Below are positions 6,205-19,384 of a stretch of 64,000 nt of DNA, piece by piece. A program made the translations under genes and the position numbers. Positions within the stretch are counted from its first letter, which is position 1. Each line of letters starts with the position of its first letter. Where the stretch lies: assembly GCF_041435055.1 (NCBI RefSeq), contig NZ_CP108002.1:1488001-1552000 (forward strand), given 5' to 3'. This DNA is from Streptomyces sp. NBC_00341. Lineage in GTDB: Bacteria > Actinomycetota > Actinomycetes > Streptomycetales > Streptomycetaceae. Under the pieces are notes generated by a model. It was given only the letters and a program-made list of their open reading frames with translations. It searched no databases and was not told the origin of the DNA.

Positions 6205-6984
6205 TCAGACCGACTTCTGGTACAAGCGGAAGGTCCGGGTCGACAGCCACACGGCGACCGCGGCCAGCACCAGCAGCGCTCCCCCGCGGCTGAGCACCAG
6301 CCACCGGTCCGGGTCCGCGCTCAGCGCCGAGCGGCCCGCCACCATCGCCCAGTTGACCGGGTTGAAGTCGGCGATGTGGCGCATCCACGACGGCATCTGG
6401 CTCGGGGCCATGAAGGACGAGGACAGGAAGGTCAGCGGCAGCAGCAGGAACGTGTTGATGCCGATGATCGACTCCCGTTGGCGCACCAGCATGCCCAGGG
6501 CGTTGGAGAGCGCGCCGAAGACCGTGCCGAGCAGGATCGAGGCGACGACCAGGACCAGCAGTCCGCCCGCCCCGCCCGGGTAGTCGGCGCCCGCCGCCCG
6601 GCCGAGCAGCACGATGACCACGGACTGCGCGGCTGTACTGATGCCGTTCTGCACGACGTTGGCGTTCATCAGGGCGTTGCGGCTGACCGGTGTCGTCAGG
6701 AAGCGGTTGAGCGTGCCGCGCTCGATCTCCTCCAGGGTGCCCATGCCGGCCCACATGCTCGACCCCAGGGCGCTCATCACGACGATGCCGGGGATCAGGT
6801 AGTCCAGGTACGACGTGGTGCCGAACCCGCCCAGCTCGACGACCTTCTTGAAGAGGTTGCCGAACAGGAACAGCCAGATCACCGGCTGGATCAGCGAGAT
6901 CACCAGGAAGACCGGCTGCCGCAGGATCGCCATCAGCTGGCGCCGGGTCATGTACCAGGTCTGGGAGAGGGTCTGACCGCTCAT
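6205..6984 (-). CDS. ABC-2 type exporter permease (DrrB-like)
   Basis: This 259-residue membrane protein has about six hydrophobic segments and the ABC-2 family features: an amphipathic start (TWYMTRRQLMAILRQP), the segment SLIQPVIWLFLFG, and the GTLNRFLTTPVSR motif between helices. It pairs with the ATPase encoded immediately upstream; the two frames overlap by ATGA, so expression is coupled. A GGGAGG ribosome site precedes the ATG at 6984. Family members export drugs or lipids, such as the daunorubicin exporter DrrAB; the cargo here cannot be told from sequence. Confidence 0.88.
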   Translation of the reverse strand: MSGQTLSQTWYMTRRQLMAILRQPVFLVISLIQPVIWLFLFGNLFKKVVELGGFGTTSYLDYLIPGIVVMSALGSSMWAGMGTLEEIERGTLNRFLTTPVSRNALMNANVVQNGISTAAQSVVIVLLGRAAGADYPGGAGGLLVLVVASILLGTVFGALSNALGMLVRQRESIIGINTFLLLPLTFLSSSFMAPSQMPSWMRHIADFNPVNWAMVAGRSALSADPDRWLVLSRGGALLVLAAVAVWLSTRTFRLYQKSV

Positions 6985-7994
6985 CGGGTACCTCCCGCGG
7001 CGACCGGGGCGTGGGCTCCGTGTGAATCGGGGGACTCCGCCTCGGCGAAGCGGCGCCCGGCGTAGCGCAGATAGACGTCGTCCAGGGAGGGGCGGGCGAC
7101 GGTGGCAGAGGCGACGGCCGAACCGGCCCGCTCCAGGGCGCCGAGCAGCAACGGCACGGCCGCTGCTCCGTCCTCGGCGCGGACGCTGACCCGGCGCCCC
7201 TCGACCAGTGCCTCGTACACGCCGGGCAGGCCGGCGAGTGCGGCGCCGACGGCGTCGCGGTCCGCCTCGGCGCGCAGCTCCAGGTGGACGGCGTCGCCGC
7301 GCAGTTCGCCCTTGAGTTCGTCGGGGGTGCCCTCGACGACGATCCGGCCGCGGTCGACGATCGCGACGCGTTCCGCGAGCCGGTCCGCCTCCTCCAGGTA
7401 GTGCGTGGTGAGCACGATGGTCAGGCCCTCCTCGCCGGCCAGCCGGGAGATCTCCTCCCACATCGCCGTGCGGGCCTCGGGGTCGAGGCCGGTCGTCGGC
7501 TCGTCGAGGAAGAGCACCTCGGGACGGTGGACCAGGCCGAGTGCCACATCCAGGCGGCGCTGCATCCCGCCCGAGTACCCCTTGACCTGGCGGCTCGCGG
7601 CGTCCGCGAGGCCGAAGCGGTCCAGCAGTTCGTCGGCCCGCCGCTGGACGGCGGCGCCCCGCATCCCGTACAGCCGGCCCTGGAGCAGCAGGTTCTCGCG
7701 GCCGGTGGCGACCGGGTCGGCGCCGGACTTCTGGGCGACCACGCCGATGGCCCGGCGGACCCGGTCGGGGTGGCGCAGGACGTCGTGCCCGGCGACCGAC
7801 GCGTGGCCGGAGTCGGGGCGGGCGAGTGTGGTGAGGATCTTGACGGTGGTGGACTTCCCCGCGCCGTTGGGCCCGAGGAGCCCGAAGACGGTGCCGGCCG
7901 GGACGGTGAGGTCCATGCCGTTCAGCGCGGTGACGTCACCCGGGTAGGTCTTGATCAGCTGTCGCGCCGCTACGGCAGGCGCACGGGTGCTCAT
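6981..7994 (-). CDS. ABC exporter ATPase (DrrA-like)
   Basis: The 337-residue ATPase shows Walker A (GLLGPNGAGKST), the signature YSGGMQRRLD, Walker B (VLFLDEPTTGLDP) and the H-loop TTHYLEEADRL. After the nucleotide domain it has the C-terminal extension common in DrrA-type exporters (about residues 240-320, ending SLDDVYLRYAGR). It precedes the permease gene with an ATGA overlap. A PadR-family regulator gene sits 220 bases upstream on the same strand, so the three probably form a drug-responsive exporter operon. Confidence 0.9.
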   Translation of the reverse strand: MSTRAPAVAARQLIKTYPGDVTALNGMDLTVPAGTVFGLLGPNGAGKSTTVKILTTLARPDSGHASVAGHDVLRHPDRVRRAIGVVAQKSGADPVATGRENLLLQGRLYGMRGAAVQRRADELLDRFGLADAASRQVKGYSGGMQRRLDVALGLVHRPEVLFLDEPTTGLDPEARTAMWEEISRLAGEEGLTIVLTTHYLEEADRLAERVAIVDRGRIVVEGTPDELKGELRGDAVHLELRAEADRDAVGAALAGLPGVYEALVEGRRVSVRAEDGAAAVPLLLGALERAGSAVASATVARPSLDDVYLRYAGRRFAEAESPDSHGAHAPVAAGGTR

Positions 7995-8215
7995 GACAGA
8001 GCTCTCCTGTGGTCGGCGGGGCACCCGGTTCTCCGGGTGCCCGGTACGCCGGTCCGTTCCGCGTGAGGAGTGCCGGGCTATCCTGGGTGTGCCGCACCTC
8101 GATGGCCTGGCCCGCTTCACGGCTTGTCCGGTCCGGGGTTCGAGACCCTGGTGGGCGCTGCTCCAACAGCGCCTGCCGGGGTCTTTTCTTCTCTGTGCTG
8201 CCCGTCCTCCTCCCG

Positions 8216-8926
8216 TCACACCTCGCGCGCGGGATCGAGGACGATGTCCTGCTGGTCCATGTCCTGCCAGTCCTGGGGCACCTCGCCCGTCTCGTGGAAC
8301 GACTTCCATTCCTCGATGCCGCTGATGGTGGCGTCACCGAGTTCCCTGCGGAAATTCCTGATCCATTCGAGCTGTGCCTCGATCATGTGGACCTGGTACT
8401 CGGTCTCCACGACGAAGATCCGGGGAAGGGCGCCGCCCAACTGGCCGAGCACCCCCCGGAGCGCCGCCGCCTGCACGGCCAGGGCCTGCTCCCTGTCGGC
8501 CAGCAGCTCGGTCACCTCGTCCGGCGGCAGGACGGGAAGCAGCGACAGGGCGGTGTCGAAGGCGGGGAACTCCGCGGCCGGGACCGCGATGAGATCGGAC
8601 AGCCAGTCCAGCATCTCGATCCGCCCGGACTCCGTGATGCCGTAGAGCGTGCGCTCGGGGCGGTTGCCCTCCCGCTGTACGCCCGCGACCTCCACGTAAC
8701 CGTGCTTCTCCAGGTTCTGGACCACGGTGTAGAGCGAGCCGAAATTGATCTTGACGCTGTGCTGCTTGCCCCGACGGCGCAGGGTCTGGGCGATCTCGTA
8801 CGGGTGCATCGACCGCTCGGCGAGCAGCACCATCACCGTGAGTGCCAGAGGATTACTGAGCTTGCGCCGCTTTGGCCACCGCCCCCACCACCCTTCGCTC
8901 GCCACCGAATACTCGTCAACGCACAT
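8216..8926 (-). CDS. PadR-family transcriptional regulator
   Basis: A winged-helix DNA-binding region (LALTVMVLLAERSMHPYEI, then NFGSLYTVVQNLEKHGYVE) is followed by a long helical C-terminal half, as in PadR repressors of multidrug exporters. The gene lies upstream of and in line with the DrrAB-like exporter, which it likely represses until a ligand binds. The start is uncertain: the ATG at 8926 gives 236 residues and lies right on an operator-like repeat; in-frame GTG codons at 8920 and 8905 are alternatives, and none has a clear ribosome site. An unusual basic, Trp-rich lead (GWWGRWPKRRK) precedes the conserved domain. Confidence 0.88.
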   Translation of the reverse strand: MCVDEYSVASEGWWGRWPKRRKLSNPLALTVMVLLAERSMHPYEIAQTLRRRGKQHSVKINFGSLYTVVQNLEKHGYVEVAGVQREGNRPERTLYGITESGRIEMLDWLSDLIAVPAAEFPAFDTALSLLPVLPPDEVTELLADREQALAVQAAALRGVLGQLGGALPRIFVVETEYQVHMIEAQLEWIRNFRRELGDATISGIEEWKSFHETGEVPQDWQDMDQQDIVLDPAREV

Positions 8927-9025: not shown

Positions 9026-9054
9026 CCAATCCGCACCGCCATCGGCTCCGAATC
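9026..9054 (+). promoter_or_regulatory. ECF (SigK-type) promoter of the sigma factor gene
   Basis: The sequence CCAATCC at 9026-9032 and CCGAATC at 9048-9054 are separated by exactly 15 bases. The same pair with the same spacing occurs upstream of the lipid operon and of the oxidoreductase gene. The -10 part equals the CCGAATC reported for mycobacterial SigK promoters, and the -35 resembles its CCATCC. This implies that the sigma factor transcribes its own gene. Confidence 0.75.
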
Positions 9055-9093
9055 ACCAGTGGAGACCGATGACCGTCCCGGGAGGAAGCCCGC

Positions 9094-9678
9094 GTGAAAG
9101 AAGCCGTGCACATCAGCGGACTGGCCTCGGCCGGACCCGACCTCCAGGAACTCCTGGGGATGGTGGCCAGAGGTGATCAGGACGCTTTCGCCCAGGTGTA
9201 CGAAGCTGTCTGCGGCCCGGTGCTCGGGCTGGTGAGAAGTGTCCTGCGCGATCCCGCCCAGTCGGAGGAGGTCGCACAGGAGGTGCTGGTGGAGGTGTGG
9301 CGCACCGCGCCCCGCTTTCAGGCGGCCCGCGGCAGCGCCATGAACTGGGTGCTGACGCTGGCCCATCACCGCGCCGTGGACCGGGTGCGCTCGGTGGAGG
9401 CGACGACGGCACGTGAGCACAAGGCGGCGCTGCTCGACCGCACCCCCGCCTTCGACGACGTCACCGAACAGGTCGAGAGCCGGCTGGAGCGGGAGCAGGT
9501 CCGCCGCTGTATGCGGACGCTCTCGGAACTGCAACGGGAATCCGTCACACTGGCGTACTACCGCGGACTGACCTATCGCGAGGTGGGCGAGCTGCTGGCG
9601 GTACCGCTCGGAACGATCAAGACTCGACTGCGCGACGGGCTGATCCGGCTGCGCGACTGCCTCGGGGTGAGCGCATGA
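9094..9678 (+). CDS. sigK: ECF RNA polymerase sigma factor, SigK type
   Basis: The 194-residue protein has only sigma regions 2 and 4, as ECF factors do. Region 2 (about 30-95) includes DAFAQVYEAVCGPVLGLV, SEEVAQEVLVEVWR and NWVLTLAHHRAVDRVR; region 4 (about 135-188) includes LSELQRESVTLAYYRGL and the HTH TYREVGELLAVPLGTIKTRL. The sequence type and the adjacent RskA-like gene place it with mycobacterial SigK. The GTG start at 9094 has GGGAGG 8 bases upstream. Its stop overlaps the next start as ATGA, so sigma and anti-sigma are made together. The name is assigned by domain type and synteny. Confidence 0.88.
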   Translation: MKEAVHISGLASAGPDLQELLGMVARGDQDAFAQVYEAVCGPVLGLVRSVLRDPAQSEEVAQEVLVEVWRTAPRFQAARGSAMNWVLTLAHHRAVDRVRSVEATTAREHKAALLDRTPAFDDVTEQVESRLEREQVRRCMRTLSELQRESVTLAYYRGLTYREVGELLAVPLGTIKTRLRDGLIRLRDCLGVSA

Positions 9679-10451
9679 GCAACGCCGGACTTCACACACT
9701 GACCGGGGCCTACGCCCTGCACGCGCTCCCGGAGACCGAGCGCCGGGAGTTCGAACGCCACCTGGGCGACTGCGAGGCCTGCTCCGTGGAGGTGCGGGAG
9801 CTGTCGGAGACCGCCACCCGGCTCGGCCTCGCCGTATCGGCCACGCCCTCGCGGGATCTGCGCGAGCGGGTGCTGCGGGAGATCACGACCGTACGCCAGG
9901 AGCCGCCGTCCAGCGGTCACCGCGCCCGCTCCGGCGGTACGGCGGGGCGGAACAGCGCGGCCAGGGCCGGGCGGTGGTCGAAGTTCGCGCTGGCCGCGTG
10001 CCTGGCGGCGGCGGCCGGATTCGGCGGCGTCGCCGTCTGGCAGAACCAGGAGGCGCAGGACGCCCGGTCCGAAGCCCGTGCCGGCGAGCAGCGGAGCGCC
10101 CAGGTGGCCGAGGTCATCTCGGCGCCCGACGCCCGTACGGATTCGGCCACGCTGAGCGACGGCGCGAAGGGCACCGTGGTGGTCTCCAAGAGCCAGAACC
10201 GGGCCGTGTTCCTGGCCTCGGGGCTGGCGGAGGCTCCCGGCGGCAAGGTCTACCAGCTGTGGTTCGAGGACAGCGGCACGATGCGCTCGGCAGGGCTGAT
10301 GCAGGCGACCGGCCCCTCCTCGACGACGTACGCGACCCTGCTCGACGGGCCGGTGGACGGCGCGACCGGGATGGGCGTCACCGTCGAGCCGGCGGGCGGC
10401 TCCGAACAGCCGACCTCCACACCGCTGGCACTGATGAAGCTGCCGGCCTGA
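9675..10451 (+). CDS. rskA: Membrane anti-sigma factor, RskA type
   Basis: This 258-residue protein has a cytoplasmic N-terminal anti-sigma domain with the zinc-type motif HLGDCEACSVEV (about residues 29-40), one membrane helix (KFALAACLAAAAGFGGVAVW, about 102-121), and an extracytoplasmic domain of the anti-sigma-K kind (TVVVSKSQNRAVFLASGL, KVYQLWFEDSG). It should hold the sigma factor inactive at the membrane until a signal triggers release, in the mycobacterial case by proteolysis. The 4-base overlap with the sigma gene gives coupled synthesis. A 19-bp hairpin follows directly. Confidence 0.88.
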   Translation: MSNAGLHTLTGAYALHALPETERREFERHLGDCEACSVEVRELSETATRLGLAVSATPSRDLRERVLREITTVRQEPPSSGHRARSGGTAGRNSAARAGRWSKFALAACLAAAAGFGGVAVWQNQEAQDARSEARAGEQRSAQVAEVISAPDARTDSATLSDGAKGTVVVSKSQNRAVFLASGLAEAPGGKVYQLWFEDSGTMRSAGLMQATGPSSTTYATLLDGPVDGATGMGVTVEPAGGSEQPTSTPLALMKLPA

Positions 10452-10458
10452 GACGGTG

Positions 10459-10501
10459 GCCCGGATCCGGCCGGAACAGAGCGTTCCGGCCGGATCCGGG
10501 C
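10459..10501. terminator. Hairpin terminator after the sigma/anti-sigma operon
   Basis: Perfect 19-bp arms at 10459-10477 and 10483-10501 (core CCGGATCCGGCCGGAAC) lie 8 bases after the anti-sigma stop. The following 209 bases up to the convergent DUF1295 gene show no convincing gene. Confidence 0.85.
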
Positions 10502-10710
10502 CGCATGAGCCGGGCCACTACGGGAACATGTCGTGAGCGGGACCGCCGGCCGCCACGCGGCGCGGGTCCCGCCCCCGGACGCGGTGGTCTCCGTACTCGC
10601 CCAGGGCAGGGTCGTCCCGGCGGGCCGGGGCCACTTCGCGGTGCTCACCCCGTACCTCCGCCGTTGGGAGGCGATGGAGGTACGGGGCCCACTGCACCGC
10701 GCCACGATCC

Positions 10711-11517
10711 CTAGGGCCTCCGTGGCGGCCGGGGGAAGAATCCGCTCGTCCTGGCGGTGTACTCGGCGAACCCGGGGCGCTCGGCCATATGCCGCTCCAG
10801 CAGGGCCTTTCCGCTGCCGCCGATGAGCAGGAAGCTCATCAGCACGGGCGCCACGACGGTGGCCGCGGCCGCCGCCGGTGCCTCGCAGACCATCAGGAAC
10901 AGGCCCCACCACACGCAGAAGTCACCGAAGTAGTTCGGATGCCGGGTCCAGGACCACAGCCCCCGGTCCATGATCCGCCCGCGGTTGGCCGGATCCGCCT
11001 TGAACCGGGCCAGCTGGTGGTCCCCCACCGCCTCGAAGCCGAGCCCGACCGCCCAGAGCGCGGTCCCCGCCCACACCAGGACCCCGGCCGGCCCCCGCAC
11101 GTACCCGGCCGCCTGCACCGGCAGCGAGATGAGCCAGACCAGCGCCCCCTGAAGCAGGTACACCTTCCGCAGGGCGTACAGCGCGGGGCTGCCCGGTGCT
11201 CTGGCAAGCATCGCCTCGTAGCGCGGGTCCTCCCCGTGCCCCCTCCCCCGGCGGGCGATGTGCCAGGCCAGCCGCAGCCCCCAGACCGCCGTCGCCACCG
11301 TGACCAGCAGCCGCCGGGTACCGTCCCCGCCGCCGCCCGCCGACATGGCGTACGAGACCAGCGCGACGGCGGTGAAGCCCAGGCCCCACGCGATGTCCAC
11401 GACGCGGTGCACGCCCTTGCGCAGCGCGACGGCGAAGGTGGCGAGCATGACGGCGAGGGCGGCGCCCGCGGCGGGCGCGAGGCCCTGTGCGAACGCCGCC
11501 CATCCGAAGCCGTTCAT
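10711..11517 (-). CDS. DUF1295 membrane enzyme (steroid 5-alpha-reductase/ICMT-like)
   Basis: A 268-residue integral membrane protein with about six hydrophobic segments. The C-terminal motif RGLWSWTRHPNYFGDFCVWWG is the hallmark of DUF1295 and the related isoprenylcysteine methyltransferase and 5-alpha-reductase fold, which act on lipid substrates with NADPH or SAM. It is the last gene of the five-gene leftward operon and overlaps the preceding gene by ATGA. In Mycobacterium tuberculosis the matching gene is Rv0446c, next to sigK. Its precise reaction is not known. Confidence 0.85.
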   Translation of the reverse strand: MNGFGWAAFAQGLAPAAGAALAVMLATFAVALRKGVHRVVDIAWGLGFTAVALVSYAMSAGGGGDGTRRLLVTVATAVWGLRLAWHIARRGRGHGEDPRYEAMLARAPGSPALYALRKVYLLQGALVWLISLPVQAAGYVRGPAGVLVWAGTALWAVGLGFEAVGDHQLARFKADPANRGRIMDRGLWSWTRHPNYFGDFCVWWGLFLMVCEAPAAAAATVVAPVLMSFLLIGGSGKALLERHMAERPGFAEYTARTSGFFPRPPRRP

Positions 11518-12881
11518 CCGGTGGCCCCGGCCGTCATGCCGTCGCGGGCGGGCGGTACCGCCGCCGGATCGGCGTACCAGCCCCGCCGGGTGGCGGGCAT
11601 CCCGGCGGTGCCGGTCTCCTCCGGCCGTACGGAGAGGATCTGGTCGACGCCCATCCGCCGTTCCTCGAAGACGAGGGCGCCACCGGCCAGGTAGAGCCGC
11701 CACACCCGTACGGTCTCCTCGCCGACCAGGTCGACGAACTCCTGCTGCTTCAGCTCCAGGGTCTCCCGCCACGCGTCGATGGTCCGTACGTAGTGCTCAC
11801 GCAGCCCCTCGACGTCACGTACTTCGAGTCCGGCGCCCTCCAGCAGCGCGACTGTCTCACCGAGCGGGCGCATGTGCATGTCGGGTGCGATGTACGACTC
11901 GATGAACGCGCCGCCGCCCGGGGCGTCGCGGCCCCGGGACATCTGCTGGACCAGCACCCGGCCGTGCGGGCGGACCATGGCGTGCAGCGTCGCGGTGAAG
12001 GCGGGGTACTCGGCGTCACCGACGTGTTCGCCCATCTCGATGGTGGACACCGCGTCGTATCCGCCCTCGTGGCCCGGGGTTCGGCCGATGTCCCGGTAGT
12101 CGCAGCAGCGGACCTCCACCAGGTGCTCCAGGCCCCGTGCCGCCACCTGCGCGCGGACGTGGGCGGCCTGCTCCCGGGCGAGGGTGACGGCGGTGACGCG
12201 GACGCCGTGCCGCTGGGCGGCGTACAGGGTCAGCGATCCCCAGCCGCAGCCGATGTCGAGCAGCCGCGCCCCGGGGCGCAGGTCCAGCTTCCGGCAGATG
12301 AGTTCGAGCTTGTCGTGCTGGGCGTCGACGGCCGCGTAGCCGGGTGCGTCACTGGTCCAGTAACCGCAGGAGTAGGCCATCGTCTCGTCGAGGAGCAGGG
12401 CGTAGAAGTCGTTGGAGAGGTCGTAGTGGTGGCTGATCGCCGCCCGGTCTCGGGACTTGCTGTGCAGGGCGCCGTGGAGTCCCGCGCGGGCGGCGGGGAC
12501 CGGCGGCCGGGGGCCCACCGCGCCCAGGCGCAGTGCGGTGCCGGCGGCCCGGAGCCGGTCCCCGACACCGGGCCGCGGCGCGCGCAGTCCGCGCTCGCGT
12601 ACCGCGTGGCGGATCGCCCGCAGGGCCTCGGCCAGGTCGCCCTCGACCTCGACGTCACCGGTGATGTACGCCTCGGCGAGGCCCAGTTCGCCCGGTGCCC
12701 AGAGCAGCCGGCGCAGCGCCCGCCGGGACCGGACGTGGACCAGGGGGCCGTCGGCGGCGCCGGTCTCGCTGCCGTCCCACATCCGCACCCTGACCGGGAG
12801 GGGTCCGCCGAGCAGCTGTTCGACGAGGGGTTCGAGGCGCTGGGCGGCGCCGGTCGTCTGCTGGTTGCCGGTAAGAGTCAT
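11514..12881 (-). CDS. Cyclopropane-fatty-acid-synthase-like methyltransferase (second copy)
   Basis: The 455-residue protein has an N-terminal lipid-binding region and a SAM methyltransferase domain with HHYDLSNDFYALLLDETMAYS and the SAM loop LLDIGCGWGSLTLYAA. It keeps EMGEHVG but replaces the IHKYIFPGG segment of ordinary cyclopropane synthases with IESYIAPDM, which alters the area around a catalytic histidine and bicarbonate pocket. It may therefore make methyl-branched rather than cyclopropane acids; mycobacterial UfaA1 (Rv0447c) holds the equivalent position. The start ATG (12881) shares one base with the stop of the upstream paralogue, with AGGAAA as ribosome site. Confidence 0.87.
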   Translation of the reverse strand: MTLTGNQQTTGAAQRLEPLVEQLLGGPLPVRVRMWDGSETGAADGPLVHVRSRRALRRLLWAPGELGLAEAYITGDVEVEGDLAEALRAIRHAVRERGLRAPRPGVGDRLRAAGTALRLGAVGPRPPVPAARAGLHGALHSKSRDRAAISHHYDLSNDFYALLLDETMAYSCGYWTSDAPGYAAVDAQHDKLELICRKLDLRPGARLLDIGCGWGSLTLYAAQRHGVRVTAVTLAREQAAHVRAQVAARGLEHLVEVRCCDYRDIGRTPGHEGGYDAVSTIEMGEHVGDAEYPAFTATLHAMVRPHGRVLVQQMSRGRDAPGGGAFIESYIAPDMHMRPLGETVALLEGAGLEVRDVEGLREHYVRTIDAWRETLELKQQEFVDLVGEETVRVWRLYLAGGALVFEERRMGVDQILSVRPEETGTAGMPATRRGWYADPAAVPPARDGMTAGATG

Positions 12882-14206
12882 CACGCCGTTTCCTGACGGG
12901 TCAGCAGCAGTTGCCGCACATGGAGGTAGCCGGAGCGGAATCCCGCCTCGGAGTAGGCCAGATAGAAGGTCCACATGCGGCGGAAGACCGCGTCGAAGCC
13001 GAGTGCGTCGACTTCCGCCGTCCGTTCGGTGAACCGTTCGCGCCACAGCCGCAGCGTCTCGGCGTAGTGGGTGCCGAAGTCGTCGCACCGGTCGATGCGC
13101 AGGCCGGTGTGTTCGGCCGTGACCTCCGCCATGGCCTCGACGGACGGCAGGAGTCCGCCGGGGAAGATGTACTTGTGGATCCAGGTGAAGGTGGTCCGGG
13201 AGGCGCGCATCCGGTCGTCCGGCATGGTGATGGCCTGGAGGGCGATGCGGCCGCCGGGGGCCAGCCGCTCCTCCAGCGTCCGGAAGTAGACCGGCCAGTA
13301 CTCCGCGCCGACCGCCTCGATCATCTCGACGCTGACCACCGCGTCGTAACTCCCCTCGACGCTGCGGTAGTCGCAGAGCCTGACCTCGGCCCGGTCCGCG
13401 TACCCGGCCTCGCTGATCCTGCGGCGGGCCAGGTCCCGCTGTTCGGCGGAGAGGGTGACGGAGAGGACGCGAGCCCCTCGGGCGGCGGCCCTGATCGCCA
13501 GTTCTCCCCAGCCGGTGCCGATTTCGAGGAGTTCGGTGCCGGGTCCGACCCCGGCCAGGTCGAGCAGCCGGTCGATCTTGCGGTGCTGTGCGGCGGGCAG
13601 CGCCTCGGCGTCCGCGGGGAAGCTGCGGAAGACGGCGGACGAGTAGCTGAGGGTCTCGTCGAGGAAGAGCGCGAAGAGTTCGTTGGACAGGTCGTAGTGG
13701 TGGCTGATGTTGTCCCGGGCGCCTTCCGGGGTGCCGAGCTGTTCGGCGGGCCGGCGTCCTGCCCAGAGTCCGCGCAGCTTCTGGAGGGGCTGCGGGATCA
13801 GGGTGGCGACGTGCCCGGCGAGGACCGTGAGGACGCCCACCGGGTCGGGCGAGTCCCATTCGCCCGCCATGTACGACTCCCCGAAGCCGATCAGGCCGTT
13901 CACGCCGATCCTGCGGAAGAAGGCGTCGGGGTCGCGGATGTCCATCAGGGGGCCGCCGAGGCCGATGTCCTCCTGTCCGGCGAGCCGGGCGCGCAGCGGG
14001 AGCCGGGCCAGTGCGTGGCGTACGAGCCGGCGCGCGACGGCGGTCCGCAGCCGGGACGCGTGCGGCGGCCGGGCGATGTCCGGCCAGCGCTCGGGGTCGG
14101 CGTCCGGGACGTGCGCCGGGGACGGGGCGGGGAATACCGATGACGGGGCGGCCGCCGGGGGCGAGGTGGCCGGGGACGACGGGGAGTGGGACGTGGACAC
14201 GCTCAC
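12881..14206 (-). CDS. Cyclopropane-fatty-acid-phospholipid synthase (first copy)
   Basis: The 441-residue enzyme methylates the double bond of membrane phospholipid acyl chains using SAM. After a Pro/Ser-rich lead of about 45 residues comes the family core: NISHHYDLSNELFALFLDETLSYSSA, the SAM loop LLEIGTGWGELAIRA, the catalytic stretch SVEMIEAVG and the family-typical WIHKYIFPGG. It therefore looks like the conventional member of the pair. The GTG start at 14206 overlaps the DUF1365 stop by GTGA and is preceded by GGAAGGA. It works on the same lipids as its operon partners. Confidence 0.88.
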   Translation of the reverse strand: MSVSTSHSPSSPATSPPAAAPSSVFPAPSPAHVPDADPERWPDIARPPHASRLRTAVARRLVRHALARLPLRARLAGQEDIGLGGPLMDIRDPDAFFRRIGVNGLIGFGESYMAGEWDSPDPVGVLTVLAGHVATLIPQPLQKLRGLWAGRRPAEQLGTPEGARDNISHHYDLSNELFALFLDETLSYSSAVFRSFPADAEALPAAQHRKIDRLLDLAGVGPGTELLEIGTGWGELAIRAAARGARVLSVTLSAEQRDLARRRISEAGYADRAEVRLCDYRSVEGSYDAVVSVEMIEAVGAEYWPVYFRTLEERLAPGGRIALQAITMPDDRMRASRTTFTWIHKYIFPGGLLPSVEAMAEVTAEHTGLRIDRCDDFGTHYAETLRLWRERFTERTAEVDALGFDAVFRRMWTFYLAYSEAGFRSGYLHVRQLLLTRQETA

Positions 14207-14925
14207 TGCATTCCTTCCTGAACGGTGTGGCGGGGACGGGGCCGCACGGGCAGTCCGCGCAGCAGGAGGCGGATTCCGTGCAGCCGGATGGCGATCGAGA
14301 CGACCGCCGTGGACCAGGGGTGGCGCAGCGCCAGGCGGAGCAGTACGCGCGGGGTCACCGGGCGTCGCACTCCGCGCACGGTGGCGGTGAAGGGCCGCAT
14401 GCCGGACCGTTCCAGATGCACCGCCAGTTCGAGCCGGGGTCCGGGCTCCGGGAGCCGCATCCGGTAGGCGCCGTCGACGCCGAAGAACGGCGAGACGTAG
14501 AACTCCTTCTCGGTGGAGGCCCGTCCGGCGGTGTCGGGGCGCAGCAAGTAGCAGTGCCGTTCGCCGTAGGTGTTGTGCACCTCCGCGACCGTGCAGAGCG
14601 GGGTGCCGTCGGCGCGGCGGCACCAGTAGACGGTCAGCGGGTTGAAGACGTGGCCGAACACCCGGGCCTGGGTGAGCATCCGCACCGTTCCGTCGGCGAG
14701 GTCGACGCCGTTCGCGGCCAGGAAGCGGCTCAGACCGGCCCGGATGGTGGGGGCCGTGCCGCCGAAGTGGTCGCGCGGGTCGAAGCGGGCCAGGACGCGC
14801 AGGGCCGCGGGCAGCGGCGGCGGTCCGTCCGGGTCGATCAGCCACAGGTAGGTGCGGTGCCGGAAGGCGTACGTGACGGGCGCGGACCGTACGTGGGCGA
14901 TGGTGCACGGGTAGAGGGCGTTCAC
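14203..14925 (-). CDS. DUF1365 protein
   Basis: The 240-residue product fits the DUF1365 family: LYPCTIAHVRSAPVTYAFRHRTYLWLID at the N-terminus, then FNPLTVYWC and AEVHNTYGERHCYLL. The family is nearly always encoded beside a cyclopropane-synthase-like enzyme and an amine-oxidase-like flavoprotein, as here, and is thought to act in fatty-acyl modification; no reaction is proven. Its GTG start overlaps the upstream flavoprotein stop by GTGA. The M. tuberculosis counterpart by position is Rv0448c. Confidence 0.85.
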   Translation of the reverse strand: MNALYPCTIAHVRSAPVTYAFRHRTYLWLIDPDGPPPLPAALRVLARFDPRDHFGGTAPTIRAGLSRFLAANGVDLADGTVRMLTQARVFGHVFNPLTVYWCRRADGTPLCTVAEVHNTYGERHCYLLRPDTAGRASTEKEFYVSPFFGVDGAYRMRLPEPGPRLELAVHLERSGMRPFTATVRGVRRPVTPRVLLRLALRHPWSTAVVSIAIRLHGIRLLLRGLPVRPRPRHTVQEGMQ

Positions 14926-16196
14926 CAGTCCACCCCCAGGCTCCTGGCCGCGTCCGCCCCCGAGCGGCAGCCGTCCTCGTGGAATCCCCAGCCGTGGTAC
15001 GCCCCCGCGTAGGCGGTGCGCGGTCCTGACAGGGCGGGCAGCCTGCCCTGCGCCGCGACCGACTCCGGGGTGTAGACGGGGTGTTCGTACACCATGCGGG
15101 CGCGGACCAGTCCGGGGGCGACGCGGTCCGCGCCGTTCAGCGTGACGACGAAGGTCTCCGGGGCGTCGAGCCGCTGGAGCCGGTTCATGTCGTAGCTGAC
15201 GGTGACATGGTCGGGGCTCGCGGTGCAGGACGGCATCAGGTAGTTCCAGGAGGCGCGGGCCCCTGGGGCACTCGGCAGCAGCCGGGTGTCGGTGTGCAGG
15301 AGGGTGGGGTTGCGGGAGTAGCGGAACGCGCCGAGGGTGTCGCGCTCCTCGTCCGTGGGGTCTGCGAGCAGGCGCAGCGCCTGGTCGGGGTGGGTGGCGA
15401 CGACGACGGAGTCGAACTGCTCCGTGGTGTCGTCGGCGGTGGTGATCTCCACGCCGTCGGGGTGCCGGCGCACCGAACGGACCGGGGTCGAGGTGCGGAC
15501 GGCTCCGAGCTCCTTGGTGACCCGTTCCACGTAGGCGCCCGATCCGCCGGTGACGGTCCGCCACACCGGGGAGCCGCTGACCGAGAGCAGCCCGTGGTGG
15601 TCGAGGAAGCGGAAGAGGTAGCGGGCCGGGTAACGCATCGCCGTCACCGGGTCGCAGGACCAGACCGCGGAGACGAGCGGGGTCAGGAAGTGGGCCGTGA
15701 AGTAAGGCGAGAAGCGGCCCCGGGCGGCGAACTCGCCCAGCGTCATGGTGTCCGCGCCGGGTCCGCCGTCCGCCAGCAGGCGCCGGGCGGACCGGTGGAA
15801 GCGGGGCACCGCCGCCAGCATCCGCAGGTAGGCCGGATTGCGGACCGCCCCCGGCCGGGCGATGAGGCCCGCCGCGCCGCGGGCGCCCGCGTACTGAAGT
15901 GCGCAGCCCTCGCACCGCACGGACATGCTCATCTCCGACTCCTGCGTGGCGACGCCGAGTTCCGCGAAGAGCCGCAGGAGGTGCGGGTAGGTGCGCCGGT
16001 TGTGCACGATGAACCCGGAGTCCACCCGGTGGACGCGGCCGTCCGACGCGGGCAGTTCGTGGGTGTGCGCGTGGCCGCCCACCCGGCTGTCCGCCTCGAA
16101 CAGCGTCACGTCGTGGGCCGTCCGCAGGATGTGGGCGGCCGTCAGTCCGGCCACCCCGCTGCCCACCACGGCTGTCCGTCGCCGCATCCCTGTCAT
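14922..16196 (-). CDS. FAD-dependent amine-oxidase-like oxidoreductase
   Basis: The 424-residue flavoprotein opens with a dinucleotide-binding fold (RRTAVVGSGVAGLTAAHIL, residues 5-23) followed by TLFEADSRVGGHAHTH, the GG doublet motif of amine-oxidase/desaturase flavoenzymes. The C-terminus (YAGAYHGWGFHEDGC) is family-typical. It heads the five-gene lipid operon and likely oxidises or reduces the acyl chain together with the methyltransferases; the mycobacterial match is Rv0449c. GGGAG supports the ATG at 16196; an ATG nine codons upstream (16223) with GAAGGA is equally possible. Confidence 0.86.
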   Translation of the reverse strand: MTGMRRRTAVVGSGVAGLTAAHILRTAHDVTLFEADSRVGGHAHTHELPASDGRVHRVDSGFIVHNRRTYPHLLRLFAELGVATQESEMSMSVRCEGCALQYAGARGAAGLIARPGAVRNPAYLRMLAAVPRFHRSARRLLADGGPGADTMTLGEFAARGRFSPYFTAHFLTPLVSAVWSCDPVTAMRYPARYLFRFLDHHGLLSVSGSPVWRTVTGGSGAYVERVTKELGAVRTSTPVRSVRRHPDGVEITTADDTTEQFDSVVVATHPDQALRLLADPTDEERDTLGAFRYSRNPTLLHTDTRLLPSAPGARASWNYLMPSCTASPDHVTVSYDMNRLQRLDAPETFVVTLNGADRVAPGLVRARMVYEHPVYTPESVAAQGRLPALSGPRTAYAGAYHGWGFHEDGCRSGADAARSLGVDW

Positions 16197-16270
16197 ACCG
16201 CTCCCTTCGAGCACCGGCGCCATCACCCGTCCTTCTGTTTCCGGGGCAGCGGCGGATGCCTCTCGCGTGT

Positions 16271-16299
16271 GATTCGTTGCAGGTCGCACCGTGGATTGG
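16271..16299 (-). promoter_or_regulatory. ECF (SigK-type) promoter of the lipid operon
   Basis: On the minus strand the sequence reads CCAATCC (16299-16293), 15 bases, then ACGAATC (16277-16271). Only the first base of the -10 differs from the two other sites in this locus. The expected transcript start is about 40-70 bases before the FAD oxidoreductase start codon. Confidence 0.7.
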
Positions 16300-16332
16300 C
16301 GGTGATCCGCTCTCATCCATTCGGGTGAGGGA

Positions 16333-16361
16333 CCAATCCGCCGGGCGACCGGCTCCGAATC
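16333..16361 (+). promoter_or_regulatory. ECF (SigK-type) promoter of the molybdopterin oxidoreductase
   Basis: GACCAATCC ending at 16339 and GGCTCCGAATC ending at 16361 repeat the sigma-gene promoter almost base for base, with the same 15-base spacer between CCAATCC and CCGAATC. The -10 ends only 6 bases before the GTG start codon, so transcription should begin at or beside the start codon. Confidence 0.75.
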
Positions 16362-16367
16362 CCCGGT

Positions 16368-17996
16368 GTGAGCGAAGATCAGAACGATGCGCAGGACGGG
16401 GCCCATGGGTCCCGGCGATCCCGCTGGGCGCGAGCCGCTCTCGCCGCGCTCAGCGGTCTGATCGCCGGGTTCAGCGCCCTGGCCGTCGCCGAGTTGGCAG
16501 CGGCGGCGGTCCGTCCGGAGGCGGGTCCGGTCACGGCGGTGGGCGGTGCGGTCATCGACCGCACTCCCCCGGCGCTGAAGGACTTCGCCGTCCGGCACTT
16601 CGGCACCAACGACAAGCTGGTCCTGGAACTGGGGATCCTGGTTCTGCTGGCCGGATTCGCCGTGGTGGTCGGAGTGCTGGCGCTGCGGCACCGGCTCATC
16701 GGCTCGGCCGCGGTCCTGGTCTTCGGTGTGGTCGGGGCAGTCGCGGCGGTGGGCCGGCCGGAGGGGCAGCCGGCCGACGCGCTGCCCTCTGTGGTGGGTG
16801 CCGTACTGGCCGCAGGAGTGCTGTATCTCCTGGTCGGACGGCTCGCCCTGGTTCCCGGTCCCTCCCCCGCGGCTGGCGGGAGGGGCGGGGGGCCGGCGCC
16901 TCGCACCTTCGACCGGCGGGGCTTCGTCATCGCGGCGAGCGCCGCGGCGGCGGCCTCCGCGGGCGCCGGGGTGCTGGGCCGTCGGCTCACCTCCGCCGTC
17001 CAGGCCGGGGCGACCGCCTCACGTCACGACCTGGTGCTGCCCGTACCCGCCTCCGCGGCGCCGGCGGTACCGGCCGGCGCCGATCTGCGGATCCGGGGGC
17101 TGGGCTCGTTCATCACGCCGAACAAGGACTTCTACCGGGTGGACACGGCCCTGGTCGTCCCGCGCATCGACGCGAACGACTGGAAGCTGAGGATCCACGG
17201 CAAGGGCGTGAAGCGCCCGGTGGAGCTCACCTTCAAGGACCTGCTGCGCCGCGAGATCATCGAGCGCGACATCACCATGACGTGTGTGTCCAACGAGGTC
17301 GGCGGACCGTATGTCGGCAACGCCCGCTGGATCGGGGTGCGGCTGGCCGATCTGCTGCGCGAGGCGGGGGTGAAGCCGCCGTCCCGCGGCGGACCCGCCG
17401 ACCAGATCATCACGCGCTCGGTGGACGGCATGACCATCGGCACCCCGGTCGAGACGGTGATGGACGGCCGCGACGCGATCCTCGCCCTCGGCATGAACGG
17501 TGAGCCGCTGCCCTTCGAGCACGGCTTCCCGGTCCGGATGGTCGTTCCCGGCCTGTACGGATATGTGTCGGCGTGCAAGTGGATGAAGGACATCGAGCTC
17601 ACCACCTTCGCCGACTACGACGCCTACTGGGTCAAGCGGACCTGGTCCCAGCAGGCCCCCATCAAGACCGAGTCCCGGATCGACACCCCCCGCCCGTTCG
17701 CCTCACCGAAGCCCGGCACGATCCCGGTCGCCGGGGTCGCCTGGGCCCAGCACCGCGGGATCTCGCGGGTCGAGGTCCGGGTGGACGGCGGACCGTGGCA
17801 CACCGCGCGGCTGGCCGCGGAGGACAGCCGGGACACCTGGCGCCAGTGGGTGTGGGAGTGGCCGGCCACCTCCGGCAACCACACCCTCGAGGTCCGCGCG
17901 ACGGACCGTACCGGCGTCACCCAGACCGACAAGCGGGTCGGCACGGTGCCCAACGGGGCGACCGGCTGGCACTCGGTGGTGGTCGACGTGTCCTGA
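16368..17996 (+). CDS. Membrane-anchored sulfite-oxidase-family molybdopterin oxidoreductase
   Basis: The 542-residue protein has four or five membrane segments in its first 190 residues, then a linker starting near RTFDRRGFV, and a molybdopterin domain (about 225-420). The Moco-binding cysteine lies in ITMTCVSNEVGG; GLYGYVSACKWMKDIEL is also typical. The C-terminal 110 residues form the Mo-cofactor dimerisation domain (VEVRVDGGPWHTARL). It likely reduces or oxidises oxo groups outside the membrane. An SigK-type promoter ends 6 bases before the GTG start, suggesting a leaderless message and control by the neighbouring sigma factor. The substrate is unknown. Confidence 0.88.
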   Translation: MSEDQNDAQDGAHGSRRSRWARAALAALSGLIAGFSALAVAELAAAAVRPEAGPVTAVGGAVIDRTPPALKDFAVRHFGTNDKLVLELGILVLLAGFAVVVGVLALRHRLIGSAAVLVFGVVGAVAAVGRPEGQPADALPSVVGAVLAAGVLYLLVGRLALVPGPSPAAGGRGGGPAPRTFDRRGFVIAASAAAAASAGAGVLGRRLTSAVQAGATASRHDLVLPVPASAAPAVPAGADLRIRGLGSFITPNKDFYRVDTALVVPRIDANDWKLRIHGKGVKRPVELTFKDLLRREIIERDITMTCVSNEVGGPYVGNARWIGVRLADLLREAGVKPPSRGGPADQIITRSVDGMTIGTPVETVMDGRDAILALGMNGEPLPFEHGFPVRMVVPGLYGYVSACKWMKDIELTTFADYDAYWVKRTWSQQAPIKTESRIDTPRPFASPKPGTIPVAGVAWAQHRGISRVEVRVDGGPWHTARLAAEDSRDTWRQWVWEWPATSGNHTLEVRATDRTGVTQTDKRVGTVPNGATGWHSVVVDVS

Positions 17997-18116: not shown

Positions 18117-18761
18117 ATGAACACCCTCCACATCCGCCGCGCCGCCCTCGCCGTGTCCGCGGCAGTGGTGCTCCCGCTCGCCCTCACCGCCTGTTCCAGC
18201 GACTCCAAGGACAGCGCCTCCGGCTCCACCGCCAGCTCCGCGAAGGCATCGGCCTCCGCCTCCGCCGGCGACTCGATGAACATGGACAAGCCCTTCGGAC
18301 CGGGCTGCGCGTCCGTGCCGAAGAGCGGCTCGGGCTCCTTCGACGGCATGGCGAAGGACCCGGTCGCCACGGCCGCCTCGAACAACCCGGCGCTCTCCAC
18401 CCTCGTCACCGCCGTGAAGAAGGCCGGGCTGGTCGACACCCTGAACAACGCCCAGAACATCACGGTGTTCGCCCCGACCAATGACGCCTTCGCCAAGATC
18501 CCGAAGGCCGACCTGGACAAGCTGCTGGCCGACAAGGCCGAGCTGACCAAGGTGCTCACGTACCACGTGGTGGGCGAGAAGCTGGCGCCGAAGCAGCTGG
18601 ACAAGGGCTCCTTCGAGACCCTGGAGAAGGGCAAGCTGATGACGTCGGGTTCGAACATGGAGTACACCGTGAACGACTCCTCGAAGGTCGTCTGCGGCAA
18701 TGTCCCGACCGCCAACGCGACGGTCTACATCGTCGACTCCGTCCTGATGCCCCCGAAGTAG
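18117..18761 (+). CDS. Fasciclin-domain lipoprotein (MPT83/MPT70-like)
   Basis: A 214-residue secreted lipoprotein: signal peptide with lipobox LTAC (Cys about residue 25), a Ser/Ala-rich linker, and one fasciclin (FAS1) domain at about 75-214 with NITVFAPTNDAFAKIP, LTYHVVGEKL and the closing VYIVDSVLMPP. FAS1 domains mediate adhesion or protein contacts at the cell surface. In mycobacteria the FAS1 proteins MPT83 and MPT70 are SigK targets. Here the gene follows the oxidoreductase by 120 bases on the same strand without its own matching promoter, so read-through is likely. CAGGAG precedes the ATG. Confidence 0.9.
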   Translation: MNTLHIRRAALAVSAAVVLPLALTACSSDSKDSASGSTASSAKASASASAGDSMNMDKPFGPGCASVPKSGSGSFDGMAKDPVATAASNNPALSTLVTAVKKAGLVDTLNNAQNITVFAPTNDAFAKIPKADLDKLLADKAELTKVLTYHVVGEKLAPKQLDKGSFETLEKGKLMTSGSNMEYTVNDSSKVVCGNVPTANATVYIVDSVLMPPK

Positions 18762-18940: not shown

Positions 18941-19384
18941 ATGTCAAACGTCTCGCACGCCGGCCATGACCTGGCCGGACACCCCGACGCCTCCGAAATG
19001 CGCGATCGTTACGCCCGGGTGATGGGTGGTCGCGATGTGGCGCTCGTGGACGGACCGGTGTTCCTGGTCGGCCTGTACTGCGCCATCTCGCCCTGGGTGC
19101 TGCACTTCACGACAAGCCAGACAACCCTGGTGAACCACAACCTGATCATGGGTATCGCGATCGCCGTGCTGGGTCTCGGGTTCACCGTGATGCCGCAGAG
19201 GATGTATGGCCTGAGCTGGGCCATCTGCGCCATGGGCGCCTGGATGATCGTCTCGCCCTGGGTGGTGGGCAGCAGCCCGGACATGGGCGTCGTACTCAAC
19301 AACGTCATCATCGGCGGGTTGACGGTCCTGCTCGGGCTGGTCTGCGCGGGGGCGTCGCTGAGGAGCAGCCGGGACCGGTCGTAG
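18941..19384 (+). CDS. SPW-repeat membrane protein
   Basis: The 147-residue protein has four hydrophobic segments arranged as two repeats, each with the family motif Ser-Pro-Trp (ISPWVLHF near residue 50 and VSPWVVGS near 107). It matches the SPW-repeat family of small bacterial membrane proteins of unknown function. An AGGAG site precedes the ATG at 18941. The region just upstream (18840-18880) is unusually A-rich for this genome and probably holds the promoter. It is monocistronic. Confidence 0.82.
   Translation: MSNVSHAGHDLAGHPDASEMRDRYARVMGGRDVALVDGPVFLVGLYCAISPWVLHFTTSQTTLVNHNLIMGIAIAVLGLGFTVMPQRMYGLSWAICAMGAWMIVSPWVVGSSPDMGVVLNNVIIGGLTVLLGLVCAGASLRSSRDRS

Follow-up and report, generated by a model that had tools for sequence, protein, structure and literature searches.

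A probable SigK-type regulon of Streptomyces with predicted BldM boxes at its output promoters

A 64,000-nucleotide stretch of Streptomyces sp. NBC_00341 (contig NZ_CP108002.1, positions 1,488,001 to 1,552,000; called the window) carries a gene for a SigK-type extracytoplasmic function (ECF) sigma factor together with genes preceded by one shared promoter motif. Here we describe this locus and the evidence that it forms a SigK regulon, the output promoters of which may also be tuned by the developmental regulator BldM (Table 1). The rskA gene overlaps sigK, and the sigma factor as well as both RskA domains score above their family cut-offs, in agreement with the SigK-type sigma/anti-sigma pair proposed in an earlier annotation made from the letters alone (the sequence-only reading). 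The genome has a single SigK match at E<=1e-40. The lipid operon on the minus strand has the order flavin adenine dinucleotide (FAD) amine-oxidase type, DUF1365, CMAS, CMAS and DUF1295, and resembles the furan-fatty-acid genes of alphaproteobacteria when the proteins are likened by family. The molybdopterin (Moco) oxidoreductase is not SorA, SorT, SoxC or MsrP by NCBIfam, for all its scores are far under the cut-offs (121.8 of 600 for SorA, 115.3 of 420 for SoxC, 86.3 of 570 for SorT and 42.4 of 207 for MsrP). The FAS1 lipoprotein gene in the window lacks a SigK site of its own, starts 123 bp past the end of the Moco gene and is probably co-transcribed with it. We are unsure whether the SPW-repeat protein belongs to the same unit.

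Table 1. Promoters, predicted box and genes of the SigK locus (positions in the window)
Feature	Position	Strand	Remarks
SigK-type promoter of sigK-rskA	9026..9054	+	exact motif; without BldM box
sigK, ECF sigma factor, 194 aa	9094..9678	+	NCBIfam SigK PRK09646, 286.4 bits (cut-off 226)
rskA, membrane anti-sigma factor	9675..10451	+	Pfam RskA_C 107.8 bits (cut-off 29.4), RskA_N 33.0 (27)
DUF1295 protein, last gene of lipid operon	10711..11520	-	Pfam PF06966; start codon chosen manually
Cfa2, CMAS-family methyltransferase	11514..12881	-	Pfam PF02353
Cfa1, CMAS-family methyltransferase	12881..14206	-	Pfam PF02353; UfaM-like by family
DUF1365 protein	14203..14934	-	Pfam PF07103; UfaO-like by family
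FAD amine-oxidase-type protein	14922..16196	-	Pfam PF01593; UfaD-like by position alone
SigK-type promoter of lipid operon	16271..16299	-	exact motif, conserved
Predicted BldM box TCATCCATTCGGGTGA	16313..16328	.	12/14 consensus positions; 4 bp from Moco -35, 13 bp from lipid-operon -35
SigK-type promoter of Moco-FAS1 unit	16333..16361	+	exact motif, conserved
Molybdopterin (Moco) oxidoreductase, sulfite-oxidase domain	16368..17996	+	Pfam PF00174, 146.8 bits; predicted leaderless GTG start
FAS1 (fasciclin) lipoprotein	18120..18761	+	Pfam PF02469; lipoprotein from signal sequence, judged by eye
SPW-repeat membrane protein	18941..19384	+	Pfam PF03779; frequent neighbour, present in part of loci

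The three promoters were found at the positions and on the strands previously reported, each with a spacing of N15. The genome scan that the sequence-only reading had suggested, a search for CCAATCC-N14..16-MCGAATC in all 9,063,152 bases, returned three exact matches, all of them at this locus and before its units. The reversed pattern did not match anywhere in the genome, and 100 shuffles of the window gave no match to the motif. An independent-base estimate from base composition predicts 0.22 matches genome-wide and a probability of 0.0016 for three or more, with the clustering at one locus not yet counted, which bears out the view that the sites are unlikely by chance. Their restriction to exactly the three units stands for exact matches and falls for looser forms of the motif, which match elsewhere: CCAATCC-N15..17-CGAA had nine matches in the genome against about eight expected from base composition, and a single loose match therefore carries little weight. 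Loose matches were dropped as a regulon list on the same count, and the sites at C1:3735051, C1:5388315, C1:8447329 and C1:8489795 were set aside, as was a further candidate at C1:4008565. Two loose matches, C1:8427728 and C1:8488034, have extra support and are described below.

A search at E<=1e-40 found SigK-type genes, paralogues among them, in 122 of 150 Streptomyces genomes; class-wide, at E<=1e-45, 126 of 246 genomes had SigK matches, and so did 48 of 103 genera. We compared 61 Streptomyces loci, namely the window and the stretches around 60 SigK-type genes (identity 70% or more for 48 and 59-66% for 12). The motif precedes at least one regulon gene in 49 of the 61 loci and stands at the same position before sigK in 40. 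By gene, it was found at 41 sigK, 23 Moco, 16 FAD and 13 FAS1 promoters, and at 15 sites without a recognised gene. In other genera of the class, regulon genes are preceded by the motif in 27 of 60 stretches (16 sigK, 8 Moco, 8 FAS1 and 1 FAD promoters; 8 sites without an assigned gene). Since sigK, FAD/lipid, Moco and FAS1 genes have the motif in front of them both in Streptomyces and in other Actinomycetes, the proposed autoregulatory promoter and locus-wide regulon are upheld. The -10 CCGAATC may also be that of mycobacterial SigK promoters, as the sequence-only reading held.

Some variants of the locus were also observed. In one locus (L096, 8216-9019) the lipid operon has shrunk to DUF1295, which follows a SigK-type promoter immediately. 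When the -10 box was typed in 41 Streptomyces loci, 29 had CGAAT, 11 had CGGAT (L043, L046, L048-L053, L057, L058 and L074), mostly at all promoters of the locus, and one was mixed. The CGGAT loci differ in SigK residues such as 76, 81 and 83, a difference confounded by kinship; because the change follows related genomes, we do not claim this covariation as a mechanism. Other Streptomyces carry a SigK-like paralogue of about 65% identity (L100-L113, L118, L123 and L125-L127). At the paralogue loci, a DUF4331 gene and an orphan zf-HC2 anti-sigma-like gene (Pfam confirmed one example of each) are preceded by the same motif, and none of 15 SigK-motif promoters of the paralogue regulon has a box of the kind described next (at least 10/14) at offset 4 or 14.

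The 33-bp spacer between the two divergent promoters of the window contains a palindrome at 16313-16328, which the sequence-only reading had overlooked. It matches the BldM homodimer box, TCACcCgnncGgGTGA, which was footprinted on two promoters according to the main text of PMC4125116, where the BldM-WhiI heterodimer box is given as TGnnCCGnnCGGGTGA. We scored boxes against this printed consensus with a threshold of at least 10/14, for which the background is 0.001 per position. Within 90 bp of the -35, 41 of 52 Streptomyces target promoters (FAD, Moco and FAS1) have such a box, and its offset from the -35 is 4 in 22 promoters, 14 in 14, and 0, 5, 13 or 15 in the remaining 5. None of the 41 sigK promoters has a box at offset 4 or 14, as opposed to 36 of the 52 targets. 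Outside Streptomyces, the box was found in 2 of 17 target promoters and 0 of 16 sigK promoters. A second set of 80 named Streptomycetaceae loci, with strains partly shared with the first, gave boxes in 18 of 27 Moco promoters, all at offset 4 or 5, in 21 of 23 FAS1 promoters (20 at 4, 5, 14 or 15), in 32 of 55 FAD promoters (22 at 4 or 13-16) and in 4 of 41 sigK promoters at scattered offsets. Exactly offset 4 or 14 was seen at 47 of 105 targets versus 0 of 41 sigK promoters in this set.

The palindrome also emerges when no consensus is used. When 18-mers upstream of the -35 are scored for self-complementarity, the maximum lies 3 bp from the -35 in Moco promoters (5.3 of 9 pairs; most other offsets give 2 to 3 of 9) and 13 bp from it in FAD promoters (4.2 of 9), and FAS1 promoters have weak peaks at 13 and 3 bp (3.3 and 3.2). 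The sigK promoters have no peak of that kind, their highest value being 3.4 at offset 38. This genome contains about 24 sites of the palindrome with at most three mismatches. As a possible local owner of the palindrome, the PadR gene at 8216-8926 was noted; the genes beside 15 other genomic copies pointed to no single regulator, and of six 14-mer variants of the palindrome looked for in papers, none turned up.

Box and promoter are paired across genomes. The composite CGNGTGA-N3-ACCAATCC-N16-CG, which joins a box half to the promoter, has 21 matches in 20 of 150 genomes and none with reversed controls; 17 lie before Moco genes, two before FAS1, one before FAD and one, in G087, 616 bp before FAS1. 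Four Moco genes that lie away from the sigK locus (in G115, G056, G005 and G100) keep the box, the promoter and the distance to the GTG codon; the loci of relocated Moco genes are L203, L204, L214 and L215. Divergent pairs of SigK -35 boxes with a spacer of 15-45 bp were found in 66 of 392 Streptomyces genomes and pairs with a spacer of 46-76 bp in 18 of 392, several of which look like chance. The spacer lengths, taken from 66 of the 74 places listed for the 15-45 bp search, were 34 bp in 42 places, 44 bp in 10, 33 bp in 8, 45 bp in 3, 35 bp in 2 and 24 bp in 1. A readable divergent pair was present in 40 loci with different FAD proteins. In the 34 of them retained for phasing, the distance of the box is 4, 14 or 15 bp on the Moco/FAS1 side and 4, 13-16 or 36-38 bp on the FAD side, with at least two changes of turn class on the former side and at least five on the latter, as counted on the FAD protein tree, in which 17 of 31 inner branches are weak. 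These steps of about 10 bp in box position, few as the changes are, suggest a face-of-helix constraint. The exact heterodimer form is present in 6 of the 34 loci, including those of S. anulatus, S. globisporus and S. rubiginosohelvolus, and would predict later, WhiI-dependent expression there; this small share rules out the heterodimer box as a general rule.

The start codon of the Moco gene keeps a constant distance from its promoter in most loci. Of the 27 Moco promoters in the named set, 25 have GTGA starting 7 nt past the end of the -10 box; in the window the last base of the box is 16361 and the first of the GTG codon 16368. This spacing fits a leaderless transcript beginning 6-8 nt past the -10, the distance expected in the sequence-only reading.

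Outside the locus, C1:8427728 places the motif before a second, unlinked FAS1 lipoprotein gene, with a BldM box of 11/14 at offset 4. The set of putative targets contains an FAS1 lipoprotein of the MPT83 type, as in SigK-RskA (ECF19) systems, and a second FAS1 gene with its own site. The other supported site, C1:8488034 (L007, L304), lies 37 nt before the gene of a secreted protein without a Pfam family, which is followed by a sortase gene. Of 12 loci compared for that secreted-protein family, 6 have a motif at this place, the window's genome being one of them. The regulon probably reaches beyond the locus. Among 30 FAS1 loci with short flanks, 22 had no motif within those flanks, which is to be expected wherever FAS1 stands behind a Moco gene. 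Divergent to sigK, the window also contains a PadR-family regulator (8216-8926) with ABC (ATP-binding cassette)-transporter genes, which together span 6205-8926.

We consider it likely, on the strength of motif, box and conservation, that the locus is an autoregulated SigK regulon with output promoters also tuned by BldM. Membrane-bound RskA would hold SigK until an envelope or redox signal releases it. Freed SigK would then use CCAATCC-N15-MCGAAT promoters to transcribe its own sigK-rskA unit, the ufa-like lipid operon and the Moco-FAS1 unit, and would also transcribe the unlinked second FAS1 gene. The output promoters of Streptomyces, and not that of sigK, would have gained a BldM site, and the lipid/Moco intergenic region would hold one BldM dimer site, flanked at helix-phased distances by the two divergent SigK promoters. 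During aerial growth, when BldM is present, it would assist SigK-RNA polymerase at the outputs only, contacting it from a position about 41-56 bp, or one turn more, upstream of the presumed start. The prediction of the sequence-only reading that the units are switched on together is incomplete: the Streptomyces lipid, Moco and FAS1 promoters have a second conserved element, the predicted BldM box, that sigK promoters lack, and SigK alone may therefore not switch the outputs on together. The sigma loop would answer to stress, and the outputs to stress and stage. Because BldM would help the SigK polymerase at the outputs, lipid and surface remodelling would need both a signal, through SigK, and a stage, through BldM. 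The products may be furan or methyl-branched fatty acids, extracytoplasmic redox chemistry and a surface FAS1 protein.

An oxidant theme is circumstantial. Light induces the FAS1 antigen genes of M. kansasii (PMC9861118, in excerpt), RskA falls under UV in a soil actinobacterium (PMC8965627, in excerpt), loss of ChrR raises furan fatty acids (PMC7380195), and abstracts tie the RpoE-ChrR pair to singlet oxygen. Only tentatively would we draw the larger picture, in which SigK-polymerase and BldM form an AND gate and a single dimer, of BldM or of BldM-WhiI, acts on two divergent ECF promoters at once. An old envelope-stress regulon would have been wired into Streptomyces development through one BldM dimer site on a fixed helical face, lying between SigK promoters or closely upstream of them. 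Its output might be an oxidant-quenching membrane of furan fatty acids, an extracytoplasmic Moco enzyme and an FAS1 surface protein in hyphae entering air and light, and one lineage might retime it with the heterodimer box.

Several observations weigh against BldM tuning. Eleven of the 52 target promoters have no box at the threshold, and among the 41 sigK promoters 10 have a chance site of at least 10/14, in one case at offset 15. In the second set, 23 of 55 FAD promoters lack the box and 10 of the 32 boxes there are at other offsets. Of the 40 divergent pairs, 6 did not enter the phasing tree because their spacers were long or their boxes below 9/14. The contrast between targets and sigK at offsets 4 and 14 is strong by Fisher's test (1.6e-13 for the first set), but it comes from relatives that are not independent. 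A text search of the main text of PMC4125116 found no mention of the genes of this locus. One alternative is a plain SigK regulon as in mycobacteria, in which SigK alone drives all the genes and the palindrome belongs to another dimeric regulator or is of minor importance. Mycobacterial reporters in which SigK alone drives mpt70 (PMC7509140, in excerpt) favour this explanation, as do the near absence of the box from the motif-bearing loci of other genera and the number of palindromes in this genome, a class of sequence that is not rare. We nevertheless regard it as rather unlikely: the exact offsets 4 and 14 from the -35 are confined to one species group and to targets rather than sigK, the box accompanies Moco and FAS1 genes to unlinked places, and the palindrome matches a footprinted consensus.

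If BldM is the owner of the box, its role at SigK promoters could instead be that of a repressor or a timing brake. A box that ends 4 bp upstream of the -35 could hinder polymerase, and 6 direct targets rise in the bldM mutant, but 131 direct targets fall (main text of PMC4125116). BldM mostly activates, and it is because of this record that we read it as an activator here. Spacing shifts by whole turns also suit a contact that must face polymerase, and repression seems improbable. The assignment of the motif is a separate matter, since the paralogue loci share it and the motif alone does not identify one sigma factor. Yet it would be very surprising if another sigma factor, such as the SigK paralogue of other Streptomyces, used it at this locus, given that the window's genome has only one SigK match and that sigK itself has the motif in front of it.

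The usual picture of an ECF sigma factor is that it works by itself on its promoters. The SigK regulon is already known, and so is its conserved site; the BldM-SigK composite promoter seems unreported. A BldM-SigK link was not met in literature searches of limited reach, a weak test of its absence from print, nor in the accessible text of PMC8914203, a paper with BldM. If the proposed regulon is real, a conserved, turn-phased activator box that is found at the outputs of an ECF regulon but is missing from its sigma gene would offer a clear example from nature of stress signal and developmental stage acting in combination, and would link protection of the envelope with development. The SigK regulon, the signal of which is obscure and which is known mostly from mycobacterial antigens, would gain a model among harmless laboratory bacteria, which predicts where (aerial hyphae) and perhaps why (envelope oxidant protection) it acts, and by which the roles of FAS1 lipoproteins, DUF1365 and the Moco enzyme become testable.

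Among the closest known systems is the mycobacterial SigK-RskA (ECF19) pair. The ECF19 type is marked by an RskA that binds and inhibits SigK and by two SigK cysteines that sense redox. In mycobacteria SigK has under its control the sigK locus, which also encodes UfaA1 and proteins of unknown function, as well as the FAS1 proteins of the MPB83/MPB70 locus (PMC10540498, in excerpt). It is autoregulated through the Rv0449c promoter, and an mpt83-sigK-rskA cassette with a SigK site is present in Yersinia too (PMC7509140). The window shares with it SigK and RskA, Ufa-like genes at the sigK locus, putative FAS1 targets and predicted autoregulation, whereas its lipid operon points against sigK under its own promoter, a Moco enzyme is a main putative target and the target promoters have predicted BldM boxes. 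In Rhodobacter sphaeroides, UfaM, UfaD and UfaO, the last of which contains DUF1365, make a furan fatty acid that accumulates on loss of ChrR (PMC7380195, in excerpt). The RpoE-ChrR system resembles the proposed regulon in that genes for a CMAS-type methylase, an oxidoreductase and a DUF1365 protein come under an anti-sigma factor, although the sigma and anti-sigma factors of the window are of other families and the Ufa likeness is one of family and position. With sulfite dehydrogenases and MsrP, the Moco protein shares the molybdopterin oxidoreductase domain, while staying far under their specific NCBIfam cut-offs. Finally, the predicted boxes are like those of the BldM Group I and Group II promoters in PMC4125116, with the homodimer form in general and the BldM-WhiI form in one clade; unlike at those promoters, the box here is fixed 4 or 14 bp from a SigK-type -35.

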